A stretch of DNA of 64,000 bases from Pseudomonadota bacterium (GTDB taxonomy: Bacteria; Pseudomonadota; Alphaproteobacteria; Sphingomonadales; Sphingomonadaceae): NCBI GenBank assembly GCA_963205265.1, contig CAUJJI010000216.1, forward strand, positions 1 to 64,000, given 5' to 3'. The translations under genes and the position numbers were made by a program. Position 1 is the first letter of the stretch. Each line of letters begins with the position of its first letter. Below, one piece after another: positions 10,465-64,000 of this stretch. The notes under the pieces are model-generated. The model made no database searches, was not told the DNA's origin, and saw only the letters and a program-made list of their open reading frames with translations.

Positions 10465-10493
10465 TTTTCAATGAGTTGGGCGGATCCAGGCTA

Positions 10494-15476: not shown

Positions 15477-15539
15477 CCTTTGCTAGTTTGACCCTCTGTG
15501 CCGCAAGGGGGGCGGCAATTTGATAAGGTAGACGGCAAA

Positions 15540-15576
15540 CGGCCCGGCCATCCTCGGGAGGATAGGGGCCGGGCCG
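15540..15576. terminator. Bidirectional hairpin between convergent genes
   Basis: GGCCCGGCCATCCTCGGGAGGATAGGGGCCGGGCC stem-loop. Confidence 0.6.
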
Positions 15577-15603
15577 AAGGCATGCTCGCTCTGGATTGAG
15601 TGA

Positions 15604-34216: not shown

Positions 34217-36841
34217 TCATCCTTTTCGGGCAACGGACGGAACGGCACCGGAGCGAAGTGAAAACTCGTGGAACCCCGAAGAGAATTCGATCGTCCCCTC
34301 TCCCCACCCCAGCGGTGAGACGAACTTGCCGGTCGCCCCCGGCGGAACTTCGATCCGGACCGCCAGTTCATCCGCGCGCCTTTCCCAGCGGATCGCGCTG
34401 CGGCCATAAGGCGTATTGATGCTTGCCTCGGCCCAATCCAGCTCGCCACCCGGCTGCGGCTCAAAACCTATGACCCGGTAGCCGGGCTTGGCAGGCTTTA
34501 TCCCCGCCAGCGACCGATAGAGCCAAGCCCCCACGGCACCATAGGCATAGTGATTGAAGCTGGTCATGCTGGCGGCGTCCTCGGCGGCCATTTCGCCAGC
34601 GTGGATCACCCCGCCGGGCTTGATCGCATCCCAACGTTCCCACACTGTTGTGGCGCCGTTTATCACCTGGTAGAGCCAGCCAGGCGCTTGCTCGTTAAGC
34701 AATAGACGGTAGGCGGTTTCCACTTGGCCGGTGCGTGTGAGCGCCGGCAGAACAAGTGGTGTTCCCAGGAAACCGGTGGCAATCCGTCCCTCACCCAACC
34801 TGACGAGATCCGCCAGACATGCCCCTAGTCCCACCATCTCTTCAGGGGGTGCAATCCCGAATTCGATCGACATAGCGCAGCCGGATTGTGTCTTCACCAC
34901 ATCGTCGGACCACTTCGCCCAGGTCGCTGCAGCGATCTGGTTGCTGCGTGCTATATAATGTTCGCCTAGATCAAAATCGCCCAGCACCTGTGCCGTTTGC
35001 CCGACAACCCGAAGACTCCTCGCCAGATAGGCCGAGGCAATGAAGTCGCGGTCGGTGGTGGCCTGCTCGGGCTTCTCTGGCGGCGCCCCGGGGTCGAGCC
35101 AGTCACCAAGGTGGAAATCGCCGCTCCAGGAGCCATCACTGGCCAACCGCGTCAATCCGTAGTCCACCCAGCTGCGCATGCTTGGGAACTGACGCGCCAG
35201 GATATCGCGGTCGCCGTAGGCCTCATAGAGAGCCCACGGAACAAGTGTCGCGGCATCGCTCCAGCCCACGCCACCAAATTCGAATTCGTGTCCCTGGATG
35301 ACGTTCGGCACTGTACTCGGGACATTGCCGTCGGACGCCTGTTCGTATGCCAGATCGACAAGCCAGCTGGCCAGGAACGCCCGAGTATCGAAGTTGGCGC
35401 AAGCCGTTTCGGCAAAGACCTGGATGTCACCAGTCCAGCCCAGCCGCTCGTCGCGCTGCGGGCAATCGGTCGGAATTGCAAAGAAGTTGCCGCGTTGCGA
35501 CCATTTGATGTTCGAATAAAGCCGGTTCACGCGTTCGTCGGAACAAGCGAAGTGACCGATCTCACGCAAATCGGAAGCAACAACGAGGCCGTTGGCAGCG
35601 TTCAGGCTGATGTCACCTTCCACTTCGGCAAAGCGGAACCCATGATAAGTGAACGCCGGTTTCACGCGCGATGCGCCTGCCGGAATGCTGAATGTGTCGG
35701 TTGCCCGAGCAGTGCGCAGTGCCGCGGTATGTAGTTCGCCATCGGCTTCCAGAACTTCGGCGTGGCGGACTTGCAAGCGAGCACTTTCGTGTGCCGTGAC
35801 ATCGAGCGCGAGGTACCCCGTAAGGTTCTGGCCACAGTCGATCGCCCAGGCACCCGACGGCCGCCGTGTGATCACTGGCTTGATCGTCATGACTTCCCGC
35901 ACTGCCGGCATGCTGCGCTGCTCGAGGCGTCCGGGCATGGGCAGTGACAAAACCTCGGCCCATTGGCTGTCGTCGAACCCGGCTTCGCGCCAGCCCACTG
36001 GTTCGGCGGCAAAGTCGATTGCAGAGCCGTCGTAGATGTCAGCAGACTGCAACGCACCCGTGCTACCCCGCCAACTGTCATCGGTGGCAATAATGGAACA
36101 GCTACCTTCCGGGTCCTGAAGCTCGAGCTGAGCCAGCAGAGCAGTCGTGTCACCATAGACGGCTCGCCGTCGCATCCAGGTCAGATTACCGCGCCACCAG
36201 CCATCCCCGACGGTCGCCGCCAGAATGTTCTCTCCATCCCTGAGCAGACCGGTCACATCATAGGTGGCGTAAAGCAGCCGATGAACATAGGCGCTCCAGC
36301 CTGGGTCAAAGAGGTCTGGCGTGATCGGTGTACCGTTCAACCAGCATGTCTGGAGCCCCAACGCGGAGAGATAGAGCCGGGCCTGACAGACCGATCCAGG
36401 CAAGACGAACGACTTGCGCAAAAGGGGAAGGGGCACGGGCCCGGTCTTGCCCTGGTTGAAGATCGGGCTGATCGGCCGCGCCAGCCAATCTTCCGCCTCG
36501 AACAGAGCCCCTTCGATCCGCAGCGGCTCGCTCCAGTCGGTCGCGCCAAGGTTGGTCCAGACCCGCACGCGCAGCCACGCAACTTCGCGGCTCGCAAGAT
36601 TCGGGCCGACCCAGGCTGCTCCAACAACTGCATCGGATTCGACCCGCCCACTCGACAAAGCGTTCGAAAAGGAACCATCGGCGCAGCGCTGCAGCTCGTA
36701 TGCTGCTTGGACGATCGGCGACGCTGATTGCAGAGTCCAGCTCAGTGTCGGACGCGCAAAGGCACAGGAAACCAGACCAGAGTCGTCATCAGTTTTCAGT
36801 CCGCGGGGCCGGACTGAGATGTCTGAACACGGGTGTCTCAT
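34217..36841 (-). CDS. GH78 alpha-L-rhamnosidase
   Basis: DCPQRDERLGWTGDIQVFAETACANFDTRAFLASWL; QHNGATTVWERWDAI-like NGATTVWERWDAIKPGG; start overlaps MFS stop. Confidence 0.93.
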   Translation of the reverse strand: MRHPCSDISVRPRGLKTDDDSGLVSCAFARPTLSWTLQSASPIVQAAYELQRCADGSFSNALSSGRVESDAVVGAAWVGPNLASREVAWLRVRVWTNLGATDWSEPLRIEGALFEAEDWLARPISPIFNQGKTGPVPLPLLRKSFVLPGSVCQARLYLSALGLQTCWLNGTPITPDLFDPGWSAYVHRLLYATYDVTGLLRDGENILAATVGDGWWRGNLTWMRRRAVYGDTTALLAQLELQDPEGSCSIIATDDSWRGSTGALQSADIYDGSAIDFAAEPVGWREAGFDDSQWAEVLSLPMPGRLEQRSMPAVREVMTIKPVITRRPSGAWAIDCGQNLTGYLALDVTAHESARLQVRHAEVLEADGELHTAALRTARATDTFSIPAGASRVKPAFTYHGFRFAEVEGDISLNAANGLVVASDLREIGHFACSDERVNRLYSNIKWSQRGNFFAIPTDCPQRDERLGWTGDIQVFAETACANFDTRAFLASWLVDLAYEQASDGNVPSTVPNVIQGHEFEFGGVGWSDAATLVPWALYEAYGDRDILARQFPSMRSWVDYGLTRLASDGSWSGDFHLGDWLDPGAPPEKPEQATTDRDFIASAYLARSLRVVGQTAQVLGDFDLGEHYIARSNQIAAATWAKWSDDVVKTQSGCAMSIEFGIAPPEEMVGLGACLADLVRLGEGRIATGFLGTPLVLPALTRTGQVETAYRLLLNEQAPGWLYQVINGATTVWERWDAIKPGGVIHAGEMAAEDAASMTSFNHYAYGAVGAWLYRSLAGIKPAKPGYRVIGFEPQPGGELDWAEASINTPYGRSAIRWERRADELAVRIEVPPGATGKFVSPLGWGEGTIEFSSGFHEFSLRSGAVPSVARKG

Positions 36842-38112
36842 GCGACTGCTGCGCGCTCCGCCTCGATTTCCTCGAGCGATTTGCCTTCGTTGCGAGGCGC
36901 GCCCAGCCATCCGATCAGCGCACTTAACCCCAAAAACCCGACCAGGATCCACGCCAGCGTGTGAAAACCGGTGGCGGTCAAGTACGGCACGAAGAAACTG
37001 AAAATGCCAAGGCCGATACGAACCACGGCGAACATCACGCCCTGAGCCGTGCTTCTCAATAAAGTCGGAAACAGCTCCGCGCTCCACAACTGGAAGAACG
37101 ATTGGGCACCGAATCCAACGGCTGTGGCCATGATCAGGATGTGGACGACAGCCACTCCACCTGTCAGCGGGAAAATGGCCAGCAAGGACATGCCCACCAT
37201 TTGCATCAGTGCCGAAACCAGGAACAACGCCCGCTGGTTCACCCGGTCGGAGAAACGCATAAAGATAAATATGATCGAAAGAATTCCGACTCCGAAGTTA
37301 AGCGCCTGCAACAGAACGCTTGCTTCCTGAGTTTGGCCGCCGACGGTGCGAAGAATGTACGGGAAGAAGAACCCGTTCGTGCCTGCCCAAAGGTTCCAAA
37401 AACCGTACATCCCGATCAGGAACAGCATAGGCTTCAGGTAGCGCGGCTGGAGCAACTGACGCCAGTCAGCTCTTGCGGCATGGTCCTCACCGGCCATCGC
37501 CTCTTCCCAATAGCGTGACTCGTGCATTTTAGAGCGCAAAAGTGTGAGTACCAGGGCAAGGACGAGGAGGTGAGCGAAAATGATCCGGATGCCAAGAATT
37601 CCAAGGGACGCTAAAAGCAAGCCGAGGCCCAGGACTACCACCGGCCCCAAATACCAGAGGATCTGAGCGACGCCGCTATAGCGGGCCCGTTCACGCTTCG
37701 GTGCCAGTTCGGCAATCAACGACCACGACGCAGGTATGTCTGCGCCCACCGCCAAGCCAACCAGAACAAACCCTAGGATAATCATCCACGGGGCGACGGC
37801 GAATGTTAGCCAAGCCATGCCAAAAGCGTAGAAGAGCATATCGTACTGATAGATTTTCTTGCGCCCAAATCTGTCGCACAAGATGCCGCCAATGAGTGCA
37901 CCGACGCCCGCTGATATCGCATTCGCACTGAAGGCCCCGATCAATCCAATCGTGGTCGTGCTCATTTTGTAGAGCTCGGCCCACAGCGCGAGTGCAGCAG
38001 AGCCCGCCACGATCGAGCCTGCATCGATATAATTGGCCAACCCGGCCAAAATTGAATCGCGCATTGGCGAACGGCTGTGACCGTCGTCCAATTGCTGCAT
38101 GTTCGTCGCCAT
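36838..38112 (-). CDS. MFS transporter (probable rhamnose/rhamnoside uptake)
   Basis: 12-TM MFS with GGILCDRFGRKKIYQYDM motif A; adjacent to GH78. Confidence 0.85.
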   Translation of the reverse strand: MATNMQQLDDGHSRSPMRDSILAGLANYIDAGSIVAGSAALALWAELYKMSTTTIGLIGAFSANAISAGVGALIGGILCDRFGRKKIYQYDMLFYAFGMAWLTFAVAPWMIILGFVLVGLAVGADIPASWSLIAELAPKRERARYSGVAQILWYLGPVVVLGLGLLLASLGILGIRIIFAHLLVLALVLTLLRSKMHESRYWEEAMAGEDHAARADWRQLLQPRYLKPMLFLIGMYGFWNLWAGTNGFFFPYILRTVGGQTQEASVLLQALNFGVGILSIIFIFMRFSDRVNQRALFLVSALMQMVGMSLLAIFPLTGGVAVVHILIMATAVGFGAQSFFQLWSAELFPTLLRSTAQGVMFAVVRIGLGIFSFFVPYLTATGFHTLAWILVGFLGLSALIGWLGAPRNEGKSLEEIEAERAAVA

Positions 38113-38352
38113 TTGCTACCCAACCTTTAGAGTGCGCTGAGCCTGGGGGGCGAAATGCGAGGCTCGGGTTTTCAAACAAGGATGGGCAGGGCGTTTCGGC
38201 CTCGCTGACGGAATAGGCACATGCCCCTCCGTCCTCCTCATGAGGGAATGCATTGTCTGCCCTTCCCGCGATGTTGGTAACGGCATCCAAACGCTCCCCG
38301 GTAACGCCCGCTCTTGGAGCGGCTAATCAGTGACCGATGACCAGCGATCATT

Positions 38353-39123
38353 TCAGACAACTATCACTTTGATTTCGTTCAAGGCAAAAGTCTCTGCAAT
38401 GTGTTCTGGAACGGCGTCGGTAATAACTGTGTCGATCTCTTCCAGGCCGCAGACTATGGCGCCGGAAGAGGCACCAAATTTGCTACTGTCGACAAGCAGG
38501 ATGACCTGTTCTGCGCGCTCAATGAGTCGCCGCTCTGCTGCAACCAGGATCACATCTTGCTGCATTATGCCTTGCGGACCGACAGAAGCTGCCCCCATGA
38601 ACAGCTTCGGAGCATGGAATCGAGGCATGGAGTCCTCACCCGCGGGGGAAAGGATGATGTTCTGCTCGCGAAAAACGGTGCCAGACGGTACCAGAACGCG
38701 CGTTCCAGCCTGGGGCAGCAGGGCGTCGACGATATGCAGAGAATTCGTCAGGACCTGCAGATCTAGTCCGGCGAGGTGAGGGCACATCTGGAGGGTCGTC
38801 GATCCACCGTCGATCATGATCCCTTCGCCCGGCTGGCACAGCGCGGCAGCGGTCTTGCCGATGGCTCGCTTGGCCTTCAGGTTCTGGGTGATCGCGAGGT
38901 CGAACGGCGTGCCTGTCAATCGGCTTGGAATTCCCGCCGGTTCCTCGATCAGCTTCGCGCCGCCACGGACCCGACTGATGCGGCCTTCAACCTCCAACTT
39001 GGCTAGATCCCGCCGTATGGTCGCAGGCGATGCCTGCAGCGTGGATTCCAGTTCCCGATAGGTAATAAAGCCCGTTGGTGCGAGGGCTGCAAGGATTGCT
39101 CTTACGCGTTCTTCGGCGTGCAT
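38353..39123 (-). CDS. DeoR/GlpR-family transcriptional regulator
   Basis: ILAALAPTGFITYRELESTLQASPATIRRDLAKLEVEGRISRVRGGA. Confidence 0.92.
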   Translation of the reverse strand: MHAEERVRAILAALAPTGFITYRELESTLQASPATIRRDLAKLEVEGRISRVRGGAKLIEEPAGIPSRLTGTPFDLAITQNLKAKRAIGKTAAALCQPGEGIMIDGGSTTLQMCPHLAGLDLQVLTNSLHIVDALLPQAGTRVLVPSGTVFREQNIILSPAGEDSMPRFHAPKLFMGAASVGPQGIMQQDVILVAAERRLIERAEQVILLVDSSKFGASSGAIVCGLEEIDTVITDAVPEHIAETFALNEIKVIVV

Positions 39124-39142
39124 ATGCCCCACTCTCAGTCCG

Positions 39143-40240
39143 TCAGGCGGCCTGTCGCTCGGCCTCGAGTTGTTCCAGCGACTTGCCCTGGTTACTTGGC
39201 GCCCAGATATAGCCGGCCAAGCCGGACGCAACCAGAAACCGGTCAGGATCCGCGCCAGGGTTGTAAAGTCGCTGGACGCGATCGTCGGTACCGCAAGGCA
39301 CCATATGCCAGGACCGATACGCACCGCGGCAAAGGTCAAGCCCTGCGCAGTCGAGCGGATCGTCGTGGGAAACAGTTCGGCGCTCCACAACTGGAGGAAG
39401 CTCCGCGGGCCGAAGCCTCCGGCAATGCCCATGATGAGGATATGGACGATGACGACGGGAAGGGTGAAGCCCATCACGGCGAGCAAGACCATGCCACCGA
39501 CGTGCATCAGCGCCGAAATTCCGAACATGGTACGCTGGTTCACCTTGTCCGACAGGGTCATGAAGAACCAGGATCGAGACGATGCCAATGGCGAAGTAGC
39601 TCGCGGGCAGCACGGTTTCCGCCCACTGGGGCAAGTGGTTCTGGTGAATCAGGTAGGGGGTGAAAAATCCGTTGTATCCTGCCCAGAGGTTCCAGAGCCC
39701 ATACATGGAGATGAGGTAGAGCATCGACTTGATGTAGAGCGGGCTGAACTGCTCGGGCCAGTCAATCCCGGCAGACTTGTCAGACTTCTCTGCGTGGCTT
39801 TCCTTCCAGCGCAGCGATTCCTTTATCCGGCTGCGCAGGAGGGTGAGCGCCAGAGCAAGAACCGCAAGGTGGATGAACAGCCAGCGGACGCCATCAATGC
39901 CGAAGGGCTGGAGGAAGTAGCCAGCGCCCAGGACGATCACGGGGCCGAGATACCACAGAACCTGCGCTAGGCCTGAATGGGCGCCGCGTTTCGTATCCGG
40001 GGCTTGTTCGGCGATTAAGGACCAGCCGCCAATGAATGCGCCGATCCCGGCCGAAATGGCATTGGCGCTGAAGGCGGCGATCAGGCCGATAAAACTGTCC
40101 GAGAGTCCATAGATTTCCTTCCACAATCCCAGCGCCAACGATCCCGCGACGATGGAACCGGAATCGATATAGTTGGCCAGCCCGGCAGGAACAGTGGTCC
40201 GCCAGCTGCTCTCTCTGCCCGCCGCACTGTTCATGCCCAC
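39143..40240 (-). pseudogene. Decayed MFS transporter paralogue
   Basis: Paralogue of 36838-38112 lacking ~53 aa including motif A; middle third (~39225-39560) is read only in another frame (SDKVNQRTMFGISALMHVGG...). Confidence 0.85.
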
Positions 40241-41385
40241 TGCTCTCCTGCAAGGTTTGTTCTGTTGATCTGGTCAATGCGACTGACCCCGATGAGCGTC
40301 ATGGCGACGCGCATTTCGGCTTCGATCAGTTGCAGCATCTGCGTAATGCCTGCTTGACCACGCGCGCCGAGAGCATAGGCCCAGGCCCGACCGAGCAGGA
40401 CGCCCTTTGCGCCCAATGCCAGCATCCGCACGACATCGAGACCGGATCGGACGCCGCCGTCAGCCAACACGGTCAGACGGTCGCCAACGGCATCGGCAAT
40501 CGAGGGAAGCGCGCGCGCGGTCGAAAGCACGCCATCGAGCTGGCGCCCGCCGTGGTTGGATACGACTATGCCATCAGCCCCAAGTTCGGCTGCTTCGCGC
40601 GCATCGTCAGGGTCGAGCAGCCCCTTGAGGATCAACGGGCCCTTCCATTCTGCCCGGATGAAATCGAGATCGTGCCAGGCGATGGAGGGGTCGAAGTTCT
40701 CGCGCATCCAGGCGAAGAAGTCCTCGATGCCGGTGCGCCCCTTGAGTACCGGCGCGACGTTGCCCAGCACATGCGGCCGGCCGAGCAGTCCGACGTCCCA
40801 TGCCCAGAGCGGGCGCGATGCCCCCTGCAAAGTGCGCCAGATCACGCCTTTGAGCCCGGGCGCGCCGGCCAGTCCCGTGTGGTAGTCACGATAGCGGGTT
40901 CCCGGCAGTGGCATGTCGACGGTGAATACAAGGGTAGAGCAGCCAGCTTCGACAGCCTGCGCCAGCAATTCGCGCATGAAGCTCCGGTCGCGAATCATGT
41001 AGAGTTGGAACCAGAAGGGCTTGTTGGCCGCATGTGCGACTTCGGGTAGGGAGCAGGCCGAGACGGTGGAGAGTGTGAAGGGAATGCCTGCAGCCTCTGC
41101 TGCACGTACAGCCTGGCATTCGCCGCGTCGAGCGTTGAGACCGGCAAGACCGATCGGAGCAAGCGCCACTGGAAGGGCCAGTTTCTGGCCAAACAGTTCG
41201 GTGGAGAGCTCCAGTGTCGACAAGTCACGTAGCACCCGCTGGCGCAGGGCGACGAGGGAAAGGTCTTCCATGTTTCGTCTCAGGGTCACCTCCGCGTAGG
41301 AGCCGCCATCCATGTATTCGAATAGGAAACTCGGCAGGCGACGACGAGCGGCCTCTCTGAAGTCGGCGATGCTGGCGACGATCAT
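40231..41385 (-). CDS. lldD: FMN-dependent alpha-hydroxy acid dehydrogenase (L-lactate dehydrogenase-like)
   Basis: [80 protein letters not shown]. Confidence 0.9.
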
Positions 41386-42800
41386 GCGACTCTCTCCAGC
41401 TCAGTGCGCCAGCGCGTCCTGTAGGATTCCAGATCGCCGTCGAACGGCGCGACGACCTTCAGTGCGCCCTGCGGGCGAAGCGAGGAGTCGATCAGACGAA
41501 GCGCTCCGAACGAAACATCGTTATGGGCAGTGGCCGTGTAGACCGTGGTTTCCGGTCGCAGGGCCGCAAGTGCGCGGACGAAGACTTCTGCTTCTGCAAA
41601 GCGTCCTTCGACAAGGATGCGCTCCTTCGAGCCGATTAAGTCGAGCGAAGCATCGGCCATGAGGGCGGCATAGAGGCAGGCTGCGGCCCGGCGGGCGTAC
41701 CGGTCTTGCGGCTCGCCGAGCCAGCGGCTGCGGCTCTCGGGAAACGGACCGGTTCCTGGCGCCAAGGTCGGCAGAAGCATCGATTGCGAGTCCAGGAGCC
41801 CCGGCACGACCTCAACGAGGGCGGGTTGGTCTGGCTTGATGTCGACGCGGCGTGTGTCGCTCCCAATCACCGTCTCGATTTCGCGCCCGCCCATGAAACG
41901 GACTGACGGGACCGGACGGCCATCGGCATCGATGTTGACGAGGCAATCGCGTCTTTCCGGGAGCGAGCGTGTCAAGACCACTTCGCGAGAGAGGCGCATG
42001 CCTATGAACCATGTGCCGGTGGACAGAATCGTCGCTTCCTCGAGGGCGATTTCAACGAAACCGCGCGCCGCGAGCACGGCGGCGTTGGAATCGTGCAGGC
42101 CTGCCAGAACCTTCACCGTGGGTGGCAGTCCGGTTCGGGCAGCCAATTCTGGGCGAAGCGTGCCGACCGGATCGGCTGCCCGAACCAGTCCGGCAAACCT
42201 GTCCGCCCAGCCAAACCGCTGGGCCAGCGGAGAGAATGTCCCTTCATCGGGCGCCCAGAGGTCGCTGTGGCAGCCGAGGCTCGTCACTTCGCTGGCCGCA
42301 ACTCCCGACAGGAACCATGCCCAGTACTGAGCCCATGGCAGGAACGTCATCTGAGGCATGAGGTCGGGATAGAGGCGATTGAGCCAGAACAGCTGGCTGC
42401 CCATGTTGAGCCCGTTCGGAAGGGCCGGAGAGCCCGTCCTGGCGAAGGCATCGCGCAATGCCCTGTATTCGGCCAGGATGTCTGCCGGGATGGCTTGCTC
42501 GTAATCGAGCGGTGGGAAAGCAAGGGCGTCGTCGCGTATCGCCGCGACGCCTGCGCCATGCGCGACAGGAACGATGACTTCGACGGGCTGTCCTGAATGC
42601 GCGCTCAGGGTCTCGACGATCCATGCGCCGATGCCCTCCGCATCGAGGCGGCGGATTCCACCGGCGCGGCACTCCGCATTCGGCCGTATCTGCCGGTCCA
42701 GCAAATGGCCATCGCGCGACCACAGCGTCACCTTGCTCAGCGTCTTGCCGATATCCAGCACAATGGCAAAGCCCCGTTTCAGTGACCCCTCCTGACACAT
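41382..42800 (-). CDS. FGGY-family carbohydrate kinase, probable L-rhamnulokinase
   Basis: [44 protein letters not shown]; rhamnose gene context. Confidence 0.8.
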
Positions 42801-42874
42801 TCAATGATTGCTGATGATTGGTTTTGTAGGCGATGGGATTGATCTTGGAAAGAGGTATCGTTAAGTTGCAATCC

Positions 42875-44983
42875 ATGGATATCCAAACAGCTAGCACCTT
42901 TGCGATTCCCTTCGCCGCTCCATCAAGCCGTTGGGATGACGCGGTCGCCTCTTCGTTGTCTGAGGCGGAGCAGCTTCTCTATCGTTCTAACCTTCTGGGT
43001 TCTGATCTGACTGTCACCAACTTCGGCGGGGGCAATACGTCCGCCAAAATCCTGGAAGTCGACCCGTTAACGGGCGAATATATCAAGGTTCTTTGGGTGA
43101 AGGGTTCGGGCGGCGACATCGGCTCGATGCAGCTCGATGGCTTTGCGACACTGTATCAGGACAAGTTGCTGAGCCTCGAAGCGCACTACAGCGGCCCGGA
43201 AGACGACGACCAGATGGTTGGCTTCCTGCCGCACTGCACGTTCAATCTGAATGGTCGCGCGGCTTCGATCGACACACCGCTGCATTCGCTCCTGCCGTTT
43301 GCGCACGTAGATCATGTCCATCCCGACGCCATCATTGCGCTGGCGGCATCTTCGGGCGGCGAGGCCGCAACCCGCGAGATATGGGGAGGCCGGATCGGCT
43401 GGCTACCGTGGAAGCGGCCCGGATACACCCTGGGCATCCAACTGCGCGACTGTGTTGCGGCCAACCCGGACCTGGAAGGCGTGATGCTTGCTGGTCACGG
43501 CATCATTTGCTGGGGCGACAGCGCAAAAGCCTGTTACGAGCGCACCATAGCGTTGATCGCCGATGCTGCGGACTACCTTAATTCACGGCTTGCCCGCAGC
43601 CCCGCCTTCGGCGGCGCAGTTGTCAATCCTGTCTCGGACCGCGCCGGGACTGCGGCCGGCTTCATGCCTCGACTGCGCGGCCTGATGGTCGGTACGAGGC
43701 GAAAGGTTGGCCATTTTTCGGATGACGCCGAAACGCTGGAGTTCGTCAACTCCGCCGATCTCGGGCGACTGGCGGCGATCGGGACCTCCTGCCCGGATCA
43801 CTTCCTGCGGACCAAGATCGCGCCTCTAGTTCTCGATCCTGAACGTCTCGACGACGAAACCTATCTCGCCGGATGCCTGGAAGACTATCGCGCGCACTAT
43901 GCGGCCTACTACGAGCGCTGCAAACGGCCGAATTCGCCGGCGATGCGCGATCCAAACCCGGTCGTCGTTCTAGTTCCTGGAGTTGGCCGCATCACATTCG
44001 CCGCCGACAAGGCGACTGCGCGGCTTGCTGGCGAGTTCTACGGCAACGCGATCAATGTCATGCGCGGAGCCGAGGCGATCGGCGACTATATAGGCCTCGA
44101 CGAGCAGGAGGCCTTCGATATCGAATACTGGCTTCTCGAGGAAGCCAAGCTGCAACGCATGCCGGCACCCATGCCGATGGTCGGACGCATCGCGCTCGTT
44201 ACGGGGGGCGCAGGCGGCATTGGTGCAGCTACTGCTGCGCGCCTGCTGCGCGAAGGTGCCTGCGTCATGCTTGCCGATCGTGATGCCGATGCGGTCGAGG
44301 AAGTCCGCTCCCGGTTCGTTGGCCAGTTCAGCAGCGACCTCGTCCGCGCCACGGTTTGCGATGTCACCGACGAGGCTCAGGTTCAGGCCGTCTTCGATGC
44401 CTGCGCCCGAGAGTTCGGCGGACTGGACATTTTGGTCGTCAACGCCGGTATCGCCTCGTCCGCGCCGCTGGAAGAAACGACGATAGAACTTTGGAACCGC
44501 AACTACGACGTTCTGGCGCAGGGCTATTTCCTGACAGCGCGCGCTGCCTGGCCGCTGCTTAAGCGGATGAGGCCGCATGGCGGCACCAGCGTCGTGTTCA
44601 TTGGTTCCAAGAACGGCGTTGCCGCCGCCTCCAACGCGAGCGCCTATTCGTCGGCCAAGGCGGCGGCGAACCACCTGGCTCGCTGTCTGGCGCTGGAGGG
44701 TGCACCGGATGGCATACGTGTGAACGTGGTGAACCCAGATGCAGTCATCCGCGGATCGAAGATCTGGAACGGAGACTGGCGGCAGGAACGAGCCGGAGTT
44801 CACGGCATAGACCCGGGCAAGGCGTTGGAAGAACACTACCGCCAACGCTCAATGCTAAAGCGCGATGTCTTGCCTGACGACATTGCCGAAGCGGCCTACT
44901 GGTTTGCTAGCGATGCCTCGGCAAAGTCGACTGGCAACATGCTCAATGTGGATGCCGGAAATGCGCAGGCTTTCACCCGTTGA
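42875..44983 (+). CDS. Bifunctional rhamnulose-1-phosphate aldolase / short-chain dehydrogenase (RhaD aldol-ADH type)
   Basis: N-term class II aldolase TVTNFGGGNTSAKI...HVDHVHPDAIIALAAS; C-term SDR GRIALVTGGAGGIGAATAARLL...YSSAKAAANHL. Confidence 0.92.
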   Translation: MDIQTASTFAIPFAAPSSRWDDAVASSLSEAEQLLYRSNLLGSDLTVTNFGGGNTSAKILEVDPLTGEYIKVLWVKGSGGDIGSMQLDGFATLYQDKLLSLEAHYSGPEDDDQMVGFLPHCTFNLNGRAASIDTPLHSLLPFAHVDHVHPDAIIALAASSGGEAATREIWGGRIGWLPWKRPGYTLGIQLRDCVAANPDLEGVMLAGHGIICWGDSAKACYERTIALIADAADYLNSRLARSPAFGGAVVNPVSDRAGTAAGFMPRLRGLMVGTRRKVGHFSDDAETLEFVNSADLGRLAAIGTSCPDHFLRTKIAPLVLDPERLDDETYLAGCLEDYRAHYAAYYERCKRPNSPAMRDPNPVVVLVPGVGRITFAADKATARLAGEFYGNAINVMRGAEAIGDYIGLDEQEAFDIEYWLLEEAKLQRMPAPMPMVGRIALVTGGAGGIGAATAARLLREGACVMLADRDADAVEEVRSRFVGQFSSDLVRATVCDVTDEAQVQAVFDACAREFGGLDILVVNAGIASSAPLEETTIELWNRNYDVLAQGYFLTARAAWPLLKRMRPHGGTSVVFIGSKNGVAAASNASAYSSAKAAANHLARCLALEGAPDGIRVNVVNPDAVIRGSKIWNGDWRQERAGVHGIDPGKALEEHYRQRSMLKRDVLPDDIAEAAYWFASDASAKSTGNMLNVDAGNAQAFTR

Positions 44984-55492: not shown

Positions 55493-55642
55493 CCGCCTCG
55501 CCGTTTACCATTCCTGCGCAACATTGCCGCTATACAGGCCCCGGCCGGGGGGATAACCTCTCCGGGACAAGACATGTGCCGAACTCGGCCAGAATTCAGC
55601 CGGTTCGGGGCCACCGTATGGGGCGGAACGGGGGGAAGAGGA

Positions 55643-56998
55643 ATGGCTGTCACGGATCACGTCGATTTCAACGGATTCATGGAAGGGGTGAAGCGGCGCA
55701 ATCCGCACCAGCCCGAATTCGTCCAGGCGGTGCAGGAAGTCGCCGAGGACATCTTCGATTTCATCGCCGACAAGGAACAATACCACGAGCAGCAGATCCT
55801 GCGCCGCATCGCCGAGCCGGATCGCGTCGTCTCGTTCCGCGTCTGCTGGGAAGACGACAACGGCGGCATCCGCGTCCAGCGCGGCTGGCGGGTGCAGAAC
55901 AACAACGCGATCGGCCCCTACAAGGGCGGCATTCGCTTCCATCCCAGCGTCAACGAGAGCGTGCTGAAGTTCCTCGCTTTCGAGCAGACTTTCAAGAACG
56001 CGCTGACCGGCCTGCCGATGGGCGGCGGCAAGGGCGGCTCCAACTTCAATCCCAAGGGCAAGAGCGTGCGCGAGATCATGCGCTTCTGCCAGAGCTTCAT
56101 GACCGAGCTCTACCGCCACATCGGCGCCGACGTCGACGTGCCGGCGGGAGACATCGGCGTCGGCGGGCGCGAGATCGGCTTCATGTTCGGGCAGTACAAG
56201 CGCATCACCAATCACTTCACCGGGGTGCTGACCGGCAAGGGCCTGGAATACGGCGGCTCGCTGATCCGGCCGGAAGCGACGGGCTACGGCGCGGTCTATT
56301 TCCTGGCCGAGATGCTCGCCACCAAGGACGAGGACCTGCACGGCAAGACCGCGGTGATCTCCGGCTCGGGCAATGTCGCGACTCATGCCGCGGAAAAGAT
56401 CGTCCAGCTCGGCGGCAAGGTGCTGACGCTGTCCGATTCGGGCGGCTTCGTCTACGATCCGGACGGCATCACCCAGGAGAAGATCGACTGGGTGAAAGTG
56501 CACAAGACGCATCGCCGCGGCAAGATCGAGGAATATGTCGCGGAATACCCCAAGGCGACTTTCACCGCCGGCAAGACCCCGTGGGGCGTGCCATGCGACC
56601 TGGCGCTGCCCTGCGCCACCCAGAACGAACTGCTCGGCGACGATGCCCGCACGCTGGTCGCCAACGGCTGCCGGGCGGTATCGGAAGGCGCCAACATGCC
56701 GACCGACCTCGACGGCGTGCACGTCTTCAAGCACGCGAAGCTGCTCTATGCCCCGGGCAAGGCCGCCAATGCCGGCGGCGTCGCCGTCTCGGGCCTGGAG
56801 ATGAGCCAGAATTCCGAACGCCGCCCGTGGAAGGAGGAAGAGCTGCAGCAGATGCTCAGGGACATCATGTCCGGCATCCACAAGACTTGCCGCACTTACG
56901 GCGATCGCGGCGGCGGCTACATCGACTACGTCAAGGGCGCGAACATCGGCGGCTTCAAGAAGGTCGCCGACGCGATGCTGGCTTTCGGGGTGGTGTGA
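55643..56998 (+). CDS. gdhA: Glutamate dehydrogenase
   Basis: GPYKGGIRFHPSVNESVLKFLAFEQTFKNALTGLPMGGGKGGSNFNPKGKS; VISGSGNVATHAAEK. Confidence 0.95.
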   Translation: MAVTDHVDFNGFMEGVKRRNPHQPEFVQAVQEVAEDIFDFIADKEQYHEQQILRRIAEPDRVVSFRVCWEDDNGGIRVQRGWRVQNNNAIGPYKGGIRFHPSVNESVLKFLAFEQTFKNALTGLPMGGGKGGSNFNPKGKSVREIMRFCQSFMTELYRHIGADVDVPAGDIGVGGREIGFMFGQYKRITNHFTGVLTGKGLEYGGSLIRPEATGYGAVYFLAEMLATKDEDLHGKTAVISGSGNVATHAAEKIVQLGGKVLTLSDSGGFVYDPDGITQEKIDWVKVHKTHRRGKIEEYVAEYPKATFTAGKTPWGVPCDLALPCATQNELLGDDARTLVANGCRAVSEGANMPTDLDGVHVFKHAKLLYAPGKAANAGGVAVSGLEMSQNSERRPWKEEELQQMLRDIMSGIHKTCRTYGDRGGGYIDYVKGANIGGFKKVADAMLAFGVV

Positions 56999-57080: not shown

Positions 57081-58001
57081 TCACCGCACCCCGAGCAGCG
57101 CCGCCTGCTCGCGCAGTTCCGCCGCGCGCGCCGGGTTGGCGGCGACGGCCGCCCCCAGCGCGGCCTTCGCCTTTTCCTCCTCGCCCAGCGTCATCCGGCT
57201 GCGGATCAGCATGATCCAGCCTTCGACATTGCCGGGCTGCTGCTCGAGCCGCGCTTCGAGGCGGGCGACCATGCCCTCGGCCATGTCGCGTTGCCGGCTG
57301 GGCGGGATGGCCGATGCCGCACGCAGGTCCTGCGCGTCGGGGCCGGGGATCGCGCGGGTGGCGAGCGGAGCCGCCGCCGCCGGTGACCTGGCGGAAGCCG
57401 CCGCGATCCGCGCGGCGACGTCGATGCCGTTGATCTTGCCGACCTGCTCGATGGTGCGGACGAGGTCGCTGCGCCAGGGGGCATCGGCCGGCGAATCCTC
57501 GAGCAGGGCCAGCCAGTCGCCGATCGCCCCGGCATGGTCGCCGGCGAGGTCGCGCTTCACCGCGAGGAAATAGCGCGACCGTTCGTCGCCGGCATTGAGC
57601 GCGAGGGCCTTTTCGAAAGCCGCGACGGCCGCGGCGGGCATGGGATCGCGCTCGCTGGCCATGACGTGCGCCTCGCCCAGCGCCGCCCAGAGGATCGCCT
57701 TGCCGGGCGCCAGCGCCGTCGCCCGCTCGTAGGCGCGGACGGAGTCGGCAAAGCGGCCTTGCGAGAAATAGGCCAGACCCAGCGATCCCCAGGCGGTGCC
57801 GTTCTGCGGATCTGCCTGCACTTTCGCTTCCAGCGCATCGATCGAGAGCGTGCCGGCGGAAGCGGTGGCTTGCGCGGCCGGAGCCGGCTCGGCGGCGCGC
57901 TGGCGCCAGATGCCATAGGCCACTGCCAGCACGGCGACCAGGGCTGCGGCGAGCAGCACCAAGGTCCCGCCCCGCGGGCCTCTAGCAGCGTCCCTGTCCA
58001 T
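57081..58001 (-). CDS. Membrane-anchored TPR protein (CcmI/CcmH-like, cytochrome c biogenesis)
   Basis: Single N-terminal TM then TPRs LEAKVQADPQNGTAWGSLGLAYFSQGRFADSVRAYERATALAPG. Confidence 0.75.
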   Translation of the reverse strand: MDRDAARGPRGGTLVLLAAALVAVLAVAYGIWRQRAAEPAPAAQATASAGTLSIDALEAKVQADPQNGTAWGSLGLAYFSQGRFADSVRAYERATALAPGKAILWAALGEAHVMASERDPMPAAAVAAFEKALALNAGDERSRYFLAVKRDLAGDHAGAIGDWLALLEDSPADAPWRSDLVRTIEQVGKINGIDVAARIAAASARSPAAAAPLATRAIPGPDAQDLRAASAIPPSRQRDMAEGMVARLEARLEQQPGNVEGWIMLIRSRMTLGEEEKAKAALGAAVAANPARAAELREQAALLGVR

Positions 58002-58071
58002 CGCGGCGCTCCGTCCGTCGTTTCGGTTTGGAGACAAGACTTGCGAAACTTCCGCCAAGAAAGCAAACATC

Positions 58072-60609
58072 GTGCAGAGCGGTGGGGGGATCGCCGTGGT
58101 TGACAGCGTCCGCATTGCCATAGTGGGTTCGGGGCCGGCAGGGCTCTCTGCCGCGGCGCGCGCAGCGCAGCTGCAGATTCCGCATGTCCTGCTGGAAAAG
58201 ACCGACCACCTCTCCGACACGATCTACAAGTACCAGAAGGGCAAGCACGTCATGGCGACGCCCTCGTCGCTGGTGCTGCGCTCGGACCTCGATTTCGCGG
58301 CGGGCAAGCGCGAAGCCGTGCTCGAGACCTGGGACGCGCAAAGCGCCCAGCGTGGTGCAGCGGTCCGGCTGCAGGCGGACGTCGTCGGCATCGCGGGCGC
58401 CAAGGGCGATTTCACGCTGACGCTCAAGGGCGGCGGCACGATCAAGGCCGAGGCGGTGATCCTGGCGATCGGCACCCAGGGCAATCCCAATCTGCTGCGC
58501 TGCCCGATCGGCGAAGGCGCGGTGGTGCAGTATCAGCTCGACGATCCCGACGAATATATCGACGAGCACATCACCGTCATCGGCACCGGCGACGCCGGCA
58601 TCGAGAACGCGATGGGGCTTGCCGCCAATCCCGAGCAGCGCAACGTCGTCAGCATCCTCAACCGCTCGACCGAGTTCGCCTCGGCCAAGGACGCCAACGT
58701 CAAGGCGCTGCTGGCGATGGAGCAGGCGGGCCGCATCCAGATACTGCGCGAGACCACCGTCGCGCGCATCGATCGCGGCACGATCACGCTCGACACCCGC
58801 GACGGCGAGCTGACGATGCCGTGCAGCCGGGTCATTTCGCGCATGGGCTCGGCGCCGCCGCGCGCCTTCGTCGAGGCCTGCTGCGCCGCGTTCGAGGATA
58901 AGGACGGCAAGCGCGTGATCGTGCCGGGCACCGGCGTGCAGTTCACCAGCGCCGACCGCGTCGCCTATCCGAAGCTGTCCCCGCAGTTCGAAACGACAGT
59001 GCCGGGCATCTACGTGATCGGCGCGCTCGCCGGCTATCCGCTGATCAAGCACTGCATGAACCAGGGCTACGACGTGGTCGAGTTCATCAACGGCAACACC
59101 GCGCTCAAGCCCGCGGACGAGCCGATTCTCGCCGCGAAGTTCGCCGCCCTGCCCGGCGATCGCCCGGTCGACGAATGGCTGGAGCTGTTCGGCAGCGGCA
59201 TCGACATCTTCCGCGAGGTCTCGCCCTTGCAGCTGCGCGAGCTGATGCTCGATTCGCAGGTCCACGCCTTCGCCGCCGGCGAAGTGATCTTCGAGCGCAA
59301 CGATCCCGGCTCGTCGCTGTTCGCCATCGCCCGGGGATCGGTGCTGGTGCAGGTCGACAAGGACGATCCGGGCAAGACCGTGGCGATCGGCCAGGGCTCG
59401 ATCTTCGGCGAGGTCGGCCTGATTTCGGGCCGGCGCCGCGGCGCGACGATCCGCGCGGCGGAACCGACGGTCGCGGTCGAGCTGGACCGCAACGCCGCGC
59501 TGAAGCTGATCTCGACGGTCCCGGCCGCCGGCCGGGCGATCACCCGCACGTCGATCGAGCGGCAGCTGCTGCAGATCTTCGGTTCGGGGCTGACCGCCGA
59601 AGACGTCGCCGAAGTGGTCGATGCCGCCGAAGTCCAGACCAGGCGCGCGGGCGAGGTGGTGCTGGCCGAAGGCGACGCCAACGACGCGCCGGGCGGCAGG
59701 GACGTCTTCATCATCCGCCGCGGCTCGATGATCGTCGAGAAGGCGATCGCCGGCAAGCAGGTGTTCCTCAGCTATCTGCCGGCCGGCTCCTATGTCGGCG
59801 AAATGGCGTTGATCGACAATGCGCCCCGCTCGGCAACGGTCAAGGCGGCGATCAAGTCGGAAGTCATCCGCCTGCCCGGCGACGCCTTCGCCCGTCTGCT
59901 CGAACGCAAGCCCGAGCTGCTGCGCCGTGCCCGCGCCGACATGGAGGACCGGCGCCAGATCAACAGCTTCATCGAGGGCCGCAAGGAGAACTTCTCGGGC
60001 GCCGTCGACCTCTATTCGCAGACCGCGCAGTTCCTGCTCGACAACGGCGTCGGCGAGGCGACCGACGTGCTGCTGATCGACGAGAAGCTCTGCGTCGGCT
60101 GCGACAATTGCGAAAAGGCCTGTGCCGACAGCCACGAGGGGCTGTCGCGGCTCGATCGCGAGGCCGGGACGACCTATGCCCATCTCCACGTCCCGACCAG
60201 CTGCCGGCACTGCGAGCACCCGCACTGCATGGCCGATTGCCCGCCCAACGCCATCCACCGCGGCCAGGACGGCGAGGTGTTCATCGACGACAGCTGCATC
60301 GGCTGCGGCAATTGCCAGCGCAACTGCCCCTACGGCGTGATCCGCATGGACAGCGTGCCGCCGCCGCGGCCTTCGCTGCTCAAATGGCTGTTCCTCGGAG
60401 AGGGGCCGGGGCCTGGCGAGCCGACCAAGGCCTGGCGCAAGCAGCATGCCGTGCCGGGCGAGGAGAGCCCGAAGAAGGCGATCAAGTGCGACATGTGCTC
60501 GGGCATCGACGGCGGCCCGGCCTGCGTCCGCGCCTGCCCGACCGGGGCGGCGATCCGCGTCTCGCCCGAGACCTTCCTGTCGGTCGCGCGGATGGGGGAG
60601 GAAGGCTGA
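58072..60609 (+). CDS. Fused FAD/NAD(P) oxidoreductase + two cyclic-nucleotide-binding domains + four 4Fe-4S motifs
   Basis: GSGPAGLSAAARAAQ; FGEVGLISGRRRGATI and VGEMALIDNAPRSATV; CVGCDNCEKAC, CRHCEHPHCMADCP, CIGCGNCQRNCP, CDMCSGIDGGPACVRACP. Confidence 0.92.
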   Translation: MQSGGGIAVVDSVRIAIVGSGPAGLSAAARAAQLQIPHVLLEKTDHLSDTIYKYQKGKHVMATPSSLVLRSDLDFAAGKREAVLETWDAQSAQRGAAVRLQADVVGIAGAKGDFTLTLKGGGTIKAEAVILAIGTQGNPNLLRCPIGEGAVVQYQLDDPDEYIDEHITVIGTGDAGIENAMGLAANPEQRNVVSILNRSTEFASAKDANVKALLAMEQAGRIQILRETTVARIDRGTITLDTRDGELTMPCSRVISRMGSAPPRAFVEACCAAFEDKDGKRVIVPGTGVQFTSADRVAYPKLSPQFETTVPGIYVIGALAGYPLIKHCMNQGYDVVEFINGNTALKPADEPILAAKFAALPGDRPVDEWLELFGSGIDIFREVSPLQLRELMLDSQVHAFAAGEVIFERNDPGSSLFAIARGSVLVQVDKDDPGKTVAIGQGSIFGEVGLISGRRRGATIRAAEPTVAVELDRNAALKLISTVPAAGRAITRTSIERQLLQIFGSGLTAEDVAEVVDAAEVQTRRAGEVVLAEGDANDAPGGRDVFIIRRGSMIVEKAIAGKQVFLSYLPAGSYVGEMALIDNAPRSATVKAAIKSEVIRLPGDAFARLLERKPELLRRARADMEDRRQINSFIEGRKENFSGAVDLYSQTAQFLLDNGVGEATDVLLIDEKLCVGCDNCEKACADSHEGLSRLDREAGTTYAHLHVPTSCRHCEHPHCMADCPPNAIHRGQDGEVFIDDSCIGCGNCQRNCPYGVIRMDSVPPPRPSLLKWLFLGEGPGPGEPTKAWRKQHAVPGEESPKKAIKCDMCSGIDGGPACVRACPTGAAIRVSPETFLSVARMGEEG

Positions 60610-61511
60610 TGGCGAGCGTCGCTTCGCGTACCGAGCCGGCGGCCGAAGCCGCGGCCACGCCGCGCCCGTCGCGGCTCGTCCAGACCAGCCACGAGGGCTT
60701 CCTGCGCCATGCCCGCTTCCGCTGGCTCAAGATCGCCGCCGTGCTCAGCCTCGCGGCGATCGTCGGCTACTTCGCCGCCGACGTCGAGCCGCGGCCCAAC
60801 GGCGGCAGCTGGTACGGATACCTGCTGGGCACGATCGGCGCGCTGCTGATCGTCTGGCTGTCGCTGATCGGCATCCGCAAGCGGGCGATGACGCCGGGCA
60901 AGTGGTCGCTCAAGGCCTGGACCTCGGCGCACGTCTACCTCGGCCTCTCGCTGATCGTCGTGGCGACGCTGCACACCGGCTTCCAGCTCGGCTGGAACGT
61001 GCACACGCTGGCCTATGGGCTGATGCTGCTGGTGATCGCCTCGGGCGTGTTCGGCATCGTCGTCTACGCCAACCTGCCGCAGGCGCTCAGCAACAACCGC
61101 GAGCAGATGACCCAGCGCCAGATGATCGAGGCGGTGCAGGCGCTCGATCGCCAGCTGCAGGACGCGGCGCAGCCGCTGGGGCGCGGCCAGGCCGACCTGG
61201 TCATCGCCGCCCTGGCCGAGGACCCCTTCGGCGGCGGCATCTCGCGGCGGCTGTCGGGCCGCTACCCCGGTTGCGCGACGGCACGCGCGATCGAGGGGCT
61301 CGGCCTGGCCGACGCGCGCGGGGCCGGCGATCCGGCGAGCGACAAGGTGGTGAAGCTGCTGATCCGCCGCCAGACGCAGCTGGCGCGCATCCGGCGGCAC
61401 TTGCGCATCAGGGCGCTGCTCGAGATCTGGCTCTACGTGCACGTGCCGGCGACCTTCGCGCTCATCGCCGCGCTGTTCGCCCATATCCTCAGCGTGTTCT
61501 TCTACTGGTAG
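60609..61511 (+). CDS. Integral membrane protein, b-type-cytochrome-like
   Basis: ~5 predicted TM helices with intramembrane His (AHVYLGL, LHTGF, NVHTLAYG, YVHVPATF, FAHILSV); TGATG overlap with previous gene. Confidence 0.75.
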   Translation: MASVASRTEPAAEAAATPRPSRLVQTSHEGFLRHARFRWLKIAAVLSLAAIVGYFAADVEPRPNGGSWYGYLLGTIGALLIVWLSLIGIRKRAMTPGKWSLKAWTSAHVYLGLSLIVVATLHTGFQLGWNVHTLAYGLMLLVIASGVFGIVVYANLPQALSNNREQMTQRQMIEAVQALDRQLQDAAQPLGRGQADLVIAALAEDPFGGGISRRLSGRYPGCATARAIEGLGLADARGAGDPASDKVVKLLIRRQTQLARIRRHLRIRALLEIWLYVHVPATFALIAALFAHILSVFFYW

Positions 61512-61526
61512 CGGCGGGCGAGGGGC

Positions 61527-63239
61527 ATGGCATTCAGGCTCAGGCAGATCGAAGTCACCGCCGCCGGGCGCGAGATCGTGCGCGACCGCGCCGTCGCCGG
61601 GAAGCTGCTCGTCGTCGGCCGCGCGGCGGACAGCGACATCCACTTGCCCGACCTCGCCATCGAACCGCGGCATGCGACGATCGACCTGCGCCACGACGGC
61701 CGGGTCGAAGTCGTCGCGGCGGCCGGGACGCTGGGCTTCGGCTGCGACGGCGAAACCGTCACCGAGGCGGTGATCGACCCCGCAACCGGGGCGGAGCTGC
61801 GGTTCGGCAGCTACCGCCTCACCCTGTCGCGCGAGGCGGACGGCACGGTGCTCGTCCAGGTGCGGCTGGCCGATCGCGAGGATGCGGGCGGCTCGCTCGA
61901 GGACAAGCTGGGCTTCTCGCTCGGCGGCGTGCTTCCGGGCAAGCGCCGGGTGGCCTGGATCGTCGCGGCCGCGGTGGTGCTGCTGTTCCTGTTCCTGCCG
62001 ATCGGCAGTTTCCTGACTCGCGGCAGCGGCCAGACGGTGATCGGCGACAGCAGCTGGAGCGCCGGCAAGCTGAGCCTGGCGCACCACGCGCTCGAGGATC
62101 GCTGCGAGGCCTGCCATGTCAACGCCTTCGTCTCGGTCCGCGATGCGACCTGCAAGGGCTGCCACAAGAGCGTCGGCGATCATGCCGACCATGCCCGGCT
62201 GGCCGAGGCCCGCGCCGGCGGCCCGCTCGGCCGCCAGTTCCTCGACGCGGCGGCGCGCGCCTTCGGCCGGGAAGGCGCGGGATCCTGCGCCTCCTGCCAT
62301 ATCGAGCACCAGGGCCTGGCGCGGATGGCAGCGCCGGCGCAGCGCTTCTGCGGCGATTGCCACGGCGGCCTCAAGGAAAGGCTCGCCCATACCCAGCTCG
62401 GCGACGCCAGCGACTTCGGCACGCACCACCCGCAGTTCACCCCGGCGCTGGTCAGCGATCCGTTCACCCGCAAGCGCATCGCCGTCTCGCTCGACGCCAA
62501 GCCGCGCGAGAACAGCGGCCTTGCCTTCTCGCACCGGTTGCACCTCGACAAGCTCGGCGGCGTCGCGCGCATGGCCGCTTCGTTCCGCGGCGAGCGCGGC
62601 TACGGCGCCAGGGGCCTCGTCTGCGGCGACTGCCACCGTCCCAGCGAGGATGCGCTGCGCTTCAAGCCGATCGACATGGAGCGCGACTGCGAAGGCTGCC
62701 ACAGCCTCGCCTACGACCGGGTGGGGCCCATCGTCCGGCGCCTGCGCCACGGCGACGTCGAGCAGATGATCGCCGATCTCAGCGTCTCGACCAATGCCGA
62801 CGTGCCGCTGGTCGGCGATCGCACGCGGCCGGGCATCCAGGCGCAGGGCCGGCCCTACCGCTTCGCCTATGCGCCGCCGGCCTACAATGCCGCGCTGATC
62901 CGCGGGGCCCTGTCGCGCGACGGCATCTGCGGCGAATGCCACACGCCCAGCTTCTCGGGCGGCCTGCCCGGCGTGGTTCCCGTGACGCTGCCGACGCGCT
63001 ATATGCAGCAGGGCTGGTTCGATCATAAGGCGCACAAAGGGGAGACATGCACGTCGTGCCATCTGGCCGAGAAGTCTTCGTCGTCCGGCGACGTGCTGCT
63101 GCCTGGGATCGCCAGCTGCCGCAGCTGCCACCAGGGCGAGGATGCGGCCAAGGCCAAGGTGCCCTCGGGCTGCGCCATGTGCCACAGCTACCACCCGCCC
63201 TTCGCCGCGCCGGGCCGCGATCGGCTGGCGCGGAACTGA
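61527..63239 (+). CDS. FHA domain-TM-decaheme c-type cytochrome
   Basis: FHA-like VVGRAADSDIHLPDLAIEPRHATIDLR; TM VAWIVAAAVVLLFLFLPIG; ten CxxCH motifs. Confidence 0.88.
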   Translation: MAFRLRQIEVTAAGREIVRDRAVAGKLLVVGRAADSDIHLPDLAIEPRHATIDLRHDGRVEVVAAAGTLGFGCDGETVTEAVIDPATGAELRFGSYRLTLSREADGTVLVQVRLADREDAGGSLEDKLGFSLGGVLPGKRRVAWIVAAAVVLLFLFLPIGSFLTRGSGQTVIGDSSWSAGKLSLAHHALEDRCEACHVNAFVSVRDATCKGCHKSVGDHADHARLAEARAGGPLGRQFLDAAARAFGREGAGSCASCHIEHQGLARMAAPAQRFCGDCHGGLKERLAHTQLGDASDFGTHHPQFTPALVSDPFTRKRIAVSLDAKPRENSGLAFSHRLHLDKLGGVARMAASFRGERGYGARGLVCGDCHRPSEDALRFKPIDMERDCEGCHSLAYDRVGPIVRRLRHGDVEQMIADLSVSTNADVPLVGDRTRPGIQAQGRPYRFAYAPPAYNAALIRGALSRDGICGECHTPSFSGGLPGVVPVTLPTRYMQQGWFDHKAHKGETCTSCHLAEKSSSSGDVLLPGIASCRSCHQGEDAAKAKVPSGCAMCHSYHPPFAAPGRDRLARN

Positions 63240-63249
63240 GGCGCGGCCC

Positions 63250-64000
63250 TTGCTGATCGCGCAGATCACCGACACCCATGTCGGCTTCGATCGGGGCAAT
63301 CCCGACGAGGCCAATTTCCGGCGCCTGACAGCGGCGGTGCGGCACCTTGCCGAGGGGCCGAACCGCCCCGATCTCGTGCTGCTGACCGGCGACCTGACCG
63401 AGTTCGGCGACGCGGACAGCTATGTCCGCCTGGCGGAAGCCGTGCGCCCCTGCCCCTGCCCGGTCTGGCCGATGGTCGGCAACCACGATGCCCGCGCGGC
63501 GCTGCTCGCCGGCTTTCCCGATACTCCGCTGGCCGGCGGCTTCGTGCAATATGCCCTCGAATTCGACGCGCTGCGGCTGCTGGTCCTCGACACGCTCGAG
63601 CCGGGCCGTCACGGCGGCGCCTTCTGCGCCGACCGCGCGGCCTGGCTGAAAGCGCGCCTTGCCGAGCGGCCGGACGTGCCGACGATCATCGCCATGCACC
63701 ACCCGCCTTTCGCCGCCGGCCTCGCCTGGCTCGACAGCGACCCCGGCGAGGCCTGGATCGCGCGCTTCGCCGATGCGATCGGCGGCCATGGCCAGGTCGC
63801 CGGCATCGTCTGCGGCCATCTCCACCGCACTATCCATACGCAGTGGAACGGCGTGGCGCTGACCGTATCCGGCTCGACCGCGCCGGGCGTCGCTCTCGAT
63901 CTCAGGCCGGTCGACAGCGAACGTCCCGACGGCCGGGCGATGATCGTCGACGACTTGCCGTCGTACGCCCTGCATTGGTGGGACGGTACGCGCCTGATCT
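63250..64000 (+). CDS. Class III cyclic-nucleotide phosphodiesterase-like metallophosphoesterase (CpdA-like), partial at window edge
   Basis: Open frame from TTG: ITDTHVGFD, LTGDLTEFGD, MVGNHDAR, MHHPPFAAG, CGHLHRTIHTQWNG; absent from the ORF track because no stop lies in the window. Confidence 0.85.
   Translation, partial: MLIAQITDTHVGFDRGNPDEANFRRLTAAVRHLAEGPNRPDLVLLTGDLTEFGDADSYVRLAEAVRPCPCPVWPMVGNHDARAALLAGFPDTPLAGGFVQYALEFDALRLLVLDTLEPGRHGGAFCADRAAWLKARLAERPDVPTIIAMHHPPFAAGLAWLDSDPGEAWIARFADAIGGHGQVAGIVCGHLHRTIHTQWNGVALTVSGSTAPGVALDLRPVDSERPDGRAMIVDDLPSYALHWWDGTRLI

Follow-up and report, generated by a model that had tools for sequence, protein, structure and literature searches.

The four genes at the end of the stretch analysed here would, judging from sequence comparison, constitute the inner-membrane half of a trans-envelope electron-transfer system of the PCC4 (putative porin-cytochrome c conduit) type under the control of cyclic AMP (cAMP), a reading that we hold with moderate confidence. 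The stretch (hereafter the window) comprises the first 64,000 bases of contig C216 (64,606 bases), from a 4.45-Mb genome that is 90% complete and whose nearest named relatives are Novosphingobium. On the + strand, gene A (58072..60609) encodes an 845-residue fusion of an FAD oxidoreductase, two cyclic-nucleotide-binding domains (CNBDs) and four [4Fe-4S] motifs, gene B (60609..61511) a membrane protein of 300 residues, and gene C (61527..63239) an FHA-transmembrane-decaheme c cytochrome of 570 residues. They are followed by a gene for a CpdA/SpdA-like metallophosphoesterase (63250..64000), which has a TTG start and extends beyond the window end to 64098 on the contig. The gaps between the genes are −1, 15 and 10 bases; A and B have one base in common (TGATG), where the ATG of B overlaps the TGA of A. 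A sequence-only reading of this DNA had described four co-directional, nearly contiguous genes forming one system. The arrangement holds and the genes are real, but they represent merely half of the system, whose outer-membrane half was absent from the earlier model.

The sequences show gene content, conservation, co-occurrence, and heme and cyclic-nucleotide ligand residues; for the mechanism, we infer donor, outward direction, contact between the parts, cAMP binding, gating and acceptor. Electrons from cytoplasmic NAD(P)H would enter the FAD of A and pass through its four [4Fe-4S] clusters to B, whose two b hemes would carry them across the inner membrane. Next, the ten bis-His c hemes of the membrane-anchored C would conduct them to an outer module, consisting of a tetraheme cytochrome, an HbpS-like lipoprotein, an outer-membrane barrel and a decaheme/beta-propeller protein of ~1,400 residues (hereafter the giant), and from there to an acceptor at the outer membrane or beyond it. 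Furthermore, cAMP from a linked CHASE2 cyclase would bind both CNBDs of A and alter the flow, and the CpdA-like enzyme would clear the signal.

The composition claimed earlier for A, FAD plus two cyclic-nucleotide-binding domains plus four 4Fe-4S motifs, was confirmed in full. Its FAD/NAD(P) two-Rossmann domain (residues 14-332; 58111..59067) matched PF07992 (8e-21) and, below the cut-off, TIGR04018 (3.3e-25). The domain shares the FAD and NAD(P) Rossmann pair of YpdA and thioredoxin reductase (TIGR04018, 88.6 bits), although it scores far below the family cut-offs (88.6 vs 339.9 and 41.4 vs 343.45 bits) and, unlike them, is fused to CNBDs and Fe-S motifs. No redox-active CxxC was found in the FAD/NAD domain, and thioredoxin-reductase chemistry was therefore rejected for A. 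PF00027 matched in two stretches (1.4e-31), corresponding to CNBD-1 (residues 399-481; 59266..59514), with the phosphate-binding cassette FGEVGLISGRRRGAT, and CNBD-2 (about residues 520-617; 59629..59922), with the cassette VGEMALIDNAPRSAT. The cassette residues Glu447 and Arg456 of the former and Glu577 and Arg586 of the latter were kept in all 20 homologues, down to about 50% identity, and the Glu-Arg spacing in both is nine residues, which is that of the regulatory subunits of protein kinase A. Both domains are predicted to bind a cyclic nucleotide. The C-terminal part carries the four 4Fe-4S motifs with 16 invariant Cys (residues 674-822; 60070..60561); it matched PF13247 (2.5e-11) as well as formate hydrogenlyase subunit 2 and HycB3 chains, and is HycB/NrfC-like.

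Gene B, earlier called a b-type-like membrane protein, showed hydropathy peaks at about residues 39-57, 71-94, 103-127, 134-152 and 279-297, indicating five transmembrane helices. It contains the motifs W104-x3-H108-x13-H122 and W274-x3-H278-x13-H292, whose Trp and His were invariant among 21 homologues and which are predicted to bind two b hemes, together with S145GxxG (S145GVFG). Pfam returned a weak cytochrome b561 match and nothing else, and profile searches found no credible PDB relative. PCC4 was described as a putative porin-cytochrome c conduit by He et al. 2017 (PMC5566968), who reported that PCC3 and PCC4 inner-membrane proteins carry WX3HX13H on transmembrane helices 3 and 5 and SGXXG on helix 4, and likened these motifs to the two-heme domain of ferric reductases and NADPH oxidases. 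With its length of about 300 residues, five helices, both WX3HX13H motifs and SGXXG, B has every reported motif. In addition, the Fe-S (PF13247) gene that lies directly upstream of the inner-membrane protein gene in PCC4 Subgroup II corresponds in position to A. Judged by these features, the inner core A-B-C belongs with the putative PCC4 and is not a new kind of system. The ferric reductase/NADPH oxidase domain (PF01794) likewise has two HX13H motifs on helices 3 and 5 that are expected to bind two b hemes; however, the match of B to it was poor (E = 0.16), and in the A-B-C system the flavin sits on a separate Fe-S protein.

Gene C agrees with the FHA-TM-10x CxxCH architecture assigned to it before: PF00498 scored above its cut-off, there is a single transmembrane helix (residues 145-163; 61959..62015), and exactly ten CxxCH sites are present (residues 186-556; 62082..63194). 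In 22 homologues, all ten CxxCH sites and exactly ten other His were invariant, so that the simplest reading of the alignment is that C would carry ten bis-His hemes and serve as an electron wire, not as an enzyme. The cytoplasmic FHA domain (residues 21-102; 61587..61832) aligned with the GarA family profile (E 1.3e-7) and shares with GarA/OdhI-type domains the FHA fold and the Gly-Arg. On the other hand, it is fused to a cytochrome, and VSRRH has become IEPRH and SLNGT has become TLGFG, with loss of the Ser and Asn that contact phosphothreonine. Since these contacts are replaced, and the positions vary also among the 22 homologues, phosphothreonine binding by C is unlikely on sequence grounds. 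Gating by phosphothreonine recognition, which the sequence-only reading had considered possible, was accordingly rejected as likely, and a role of the domain in protein contact seems more likely. As to the chain as a whole, the order from flavin/Fe-S over membrane heme b to periplasmic decaheme postulated earlier stands, given the motifs and invariant ligands, whereas NAD(P)H and the direction of flow keep their conditional form.

The direction of flow might also be the reverse. An external or periplasmic donor, be it Fe(II), Mn(II) or some organic compound in reduced form, could be oxidised at the outer membrane, and its electrons could enter by way of C and B, ending in the quinone pool or, through A, on NAD(P)+. 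Most sphingomonads live aerobically and hardly need an extracellular acceptor, and B could exchange electrons with quinone. Inward flow is also the direction proposed for PCC4 by He et al., mainly on the grounds of the environments in which Fe(II) and Mn(II) oxidisers live (PMC5566968). However, a cytoplasmic protein with flavin and four 4Fe-4S clusters is more simply explained by an NAD(P)H-linked source, reduction of NAD(P)+ by high-potential donors costs energy, and the genes indicate no donor. We regard inward flow as rather unlikely.

In many families, C is followed by genes for an HbpS-like secreted protein, an outer-membrane barrel and the giant (about 1,300-1,400 residues, decaheme, LVIVD propeller). 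In the source genome this outer half lies on another contig (C9, locus L191), where we found a tetraheme c554-like cytochrome (6398-7654), an HbpS-like protein with a lipobox (7894-9627), the barrel (9570-11495) and the giant (11327-15505). That C216 and C9 adjoin was considered and rejected, as the tails of the two contigs do not overlap, and no linkage is claimed in this genome. Among 150 relatives, the giant was present in 39 of 39 A-positive vs 1 of 111 A-negative genomes; in a sample of the class, it was present in 29 of 36 A-positive vs 0 of 350 A-negative genomes (Fisher p 2.5e-35 and 2.1e-37, respectively, with shared descent ignored). In several genomes A and the giant are far apart, indicating that their co-occurrence is not merely linkage. 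Where the giant is missing, as in L169-L171, A-B-C is accompanied by genes for a tetraheme protein, a pentaheme protein and a different barrel, showing that the inner core is constant and the outer modules are exchangeable. These relatives match the 4/5/10-heme plus porin set of PCC4 exactly. The source genome shares with PCC4 the 10-heme and 4-heme cytochromes and a barrel in the cluster, but a second decaheme protein, the giant, replaces the 5-heme protein, and the HbpS-like lipoprotein, the CHASE2 cyclase and CpdA are added. PCC4 is further characterised by having no extracellular multiheme cytochrome, the one observation on this point being that the giant has an apparent signal peptide. 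Two-partner secretion genes, encoding TpsB and a TpsA-like exoprotein of 1,600-2,100 residues, and genes for CHAT-domain proteins are found repeatedly in the neighbourhood of the outer module or of A (L205, L206 on the Sphingobium plasmid pMSHV, L209, L129, L134-L137, L140 and L152).

The same outer genes admit an arrangement with no conduit at all, in which the giant, or a c554-like cytochrome elsewhere, would be a periplasmic or surface reductase for a specific substrate, with A-B-C as its private electron supply and the barrel as its substrate porin. The barrel model has 18 strands (mean pLDDT 60) and is AlgE/OprD-like, matching AlgE with E 3.8e-16; the variant loci contain c554-family tetraheme and pentaheme proteins; the outer module is swapped while A-B-C stays; and the giant has at least 16 conserved His outside CxxCH, which exceeds the need of its ten hemes. 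Nevertheless, no recognisable catalytic family was found in the giant, and we consider a dedicated reductase unlikely. Profile searches gave no credible PDB relative of either the barrel or the giant.

A single PF00211 cyclase was detected in the genome, and it is the CHASE2 protein encoded by the first gene of the outer cluster on contig C9 (L191:3837-6239), directly upstream of the tetraheme gene. It scored 66.3 bits vs a cut-off of 21.9 and keeps the two metal Asp, the substrate Lys, and the transition-state Asn and Arg of class III adenylyl cyclases (FCDI, DKFMGD, GDTVNLASR). The cyclase, tetraheme, HbpS and barrel genes are contiguous, with the giant gene next, in two relatives (L212 and L213). 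Close homologues of this cyclase occurred in 11 of the 150 relatives, all of them A-positive, and any class III cyclase in 38 of 39 A-positive vs 11 of 111 A-negative relatives; in 26 of the 38, it lay no more than 30 kb from A or the giant where about 2 would be expected by chance, and these counts, like those for the giant, are inflated by shared ancestry. Stronger than these counts is the physical linkage of two or more cyclase types that diverge from each other: a divergent CHASE2 type stands beside the outer cluster on pMSHV and in genome G007. Cyclases were also found near A in L102, L105 and L198. The CpdA-like enzyme of the window has the full set of metal motifs (D-x-H, GD, GNHD, H and GHxH). 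The cyclase, the CNBDs of A and this putative phosphodiesterase would thus make up a set for the synthesis, reception and degradation of cAMP. Cyclic-nucleotide control, proposed earlier from the CNBDs and the phosphodiesterase, is strengthened as a prediction by the linked cyclase.

The nucleotide might alternatively act on expression alone, with a CRP-family regulator mediating the effect of the linked cyclase and the CNBDs of A serving a structural purpose. Control of respiration by cAMP-CRP is common, and a Crp/Fnr regulator is encoded near the CHASE2 cyclase on pMSHV. Against this stands the invariance of the cassette Glu and Arg in both CNBDs across the homologues, which would be unexpected for structural relics, and we deem a purely transcriptional role improbable. 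A more specific form of our proposal, in which the CHASE2 cyclase senses the surface, cAMP switches the current post-translationally through the tandem CNBDs and the co-operonic phosphodiesterase resets the wire, is offered tentatively.

A genome-neighbourhood survey, suggested by the sequence-only reading as a check, showed that A-B-C is conserved in Sphingomonadales and in other families. Among testable named Sphingomonadales loci, B was co-located in 76 of 76 and C in 71 of 71; the three genes were co-located in 17 of 18 loci of other alphaproteobacterial families; and their order was kept in about 90 loci from many families. We found nothing in favour of a chance association of four genes with unrelated functions, CpdA alone being variable in presence; for A-B-C such an association is refuted by this conserved order, and it can be set aside as extremely improbable. 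Of 276 genera sampled in the class, 24 contained A, and some genomes from elsewhere in the phylum have it as well. Gene A also occurs on twelve Sphingobium megaplasmids (0.88-1.28 Mb), and on pMSHV, which is predicted to be conjugative, the inner and outer halves adjoin, suggesting horizontal spread of the system. Genome G535 has an additional copy of A (L198:9485-11962) that is not accompanied by B or C and is separated by about 1.7 kb from an unrelated class III cyclase, which may point to a distinct cyclic-nucleotide-linked use of the same flavoprotein.

Several points weigh against the proposal of a cAMP-controlled PCC4-type system. The CpdA-like gene was present in 65 of 68 Sphingomonadales loci but in 0 of 17 A-B-C loci outside that order. 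The earlier assignment of its product as a CpdA-like cyclic-nucleotide phosphodiesterase is backed by the metal motifs but not by the family scores, which are below the cut-offs of SpdA (139 vs 400 bits) and CpdA (84.7 vs 225 bits). The A protein of this genome has another residue in place of one Arg of the NADPH-type NRR motif, which weakens the assignment of NADPH. The association with cyclases would also fit an action of cAMP on transcription rather than on A. The structure model of the giant (pLDDT 35) gives no usable fold or placement. In addition, 18 strands are fewer than those of MtrB-type sheaths, and since the modelled barrel is narrow for a sheath, it is doubtful that a cytochrome runs through its lumen; the inner face of the outer membrane may be where the wire stops, and electrons may be passed on in another way, or the barrel may function as a porin.

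The same barrel separates the system from MtrCAB, MtoAB and PioAB. A-B-C and the outer half share with these conduits the logic of a porin and a decaheme cytochrome across the envelope, but C is anchored in the inner membrane by its FHA-transmembrane segment and the barrel is AlgE-like with 18 strands. The system gave no sequence match of the MtrA or MtrB type. As for earlier descriptions, the type of cluster to which B belongs is already on record as the putative PCC4, whereas for the variant with the giant and the cAMP set, no description was found in the main texts of a largely open literature. CNBD, FHA and FAD were not found named in the main text of PMC5566968, and searches of the literature on FHA/cyclic-nucleotide multiheme operons, LVIVD cytochromes, extracellular electron transfer in Novosphingobium, and CHASE2 with multiheme cytochromes yielded nothing relevant.

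Divergent from A, and its usual upstream neighbour, is a gene for a CcmH/CycH-like TPR protein of c-cytochrome maturation (57081..58220, − strand), a probable partner of A-B-C outside the core. It is also divergent beside A in L037, L174 and L175, and near A in L157 and L162. A NAD-type glutamate dehydrogenase gene (55574-56998, +) adjoins it, and in one relative, a homologue of the Pycsar effector PycTM (PF18967; L037:6205-6828) lies between the glutamate dehydrogenase and TPR genes beside A. Short, GC-rich dispersed repeats run from the phosphoesterase gene to the end of contig C216 (L036:7088-7607) and are a possible cause of the assembly break. An Rfam search of the window and contig tail returned one tRNA and nothing else. 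Elsewhere in the window, genes for an alpha-L-rhamnosidase, a major facilitator superfamily transporter, an FGGY-type kinase and an aldolase II/short-chain dehydrogenase fusion (34217-44983) look like a rhamnose-use cluster, and adjoining genes for an alpha/beta hydrolase, a tannase/feruloyl esterase and a TonB-dependent receptor (11510-18480) probably serve the use of plant-polyphenol esters.

If the proposed system is real, it would provide a testable transmembrane electron pathway under cyclic-nucleotide control at the protein level. Its hosts would be aerobic bacteria of soil, water and plants, which are seldom tied to extracellular electron transfer, and the loosely defined PCC4 would become a modular system that is common in Sphingomonadales and carried on Sphingobium megaplasmids.

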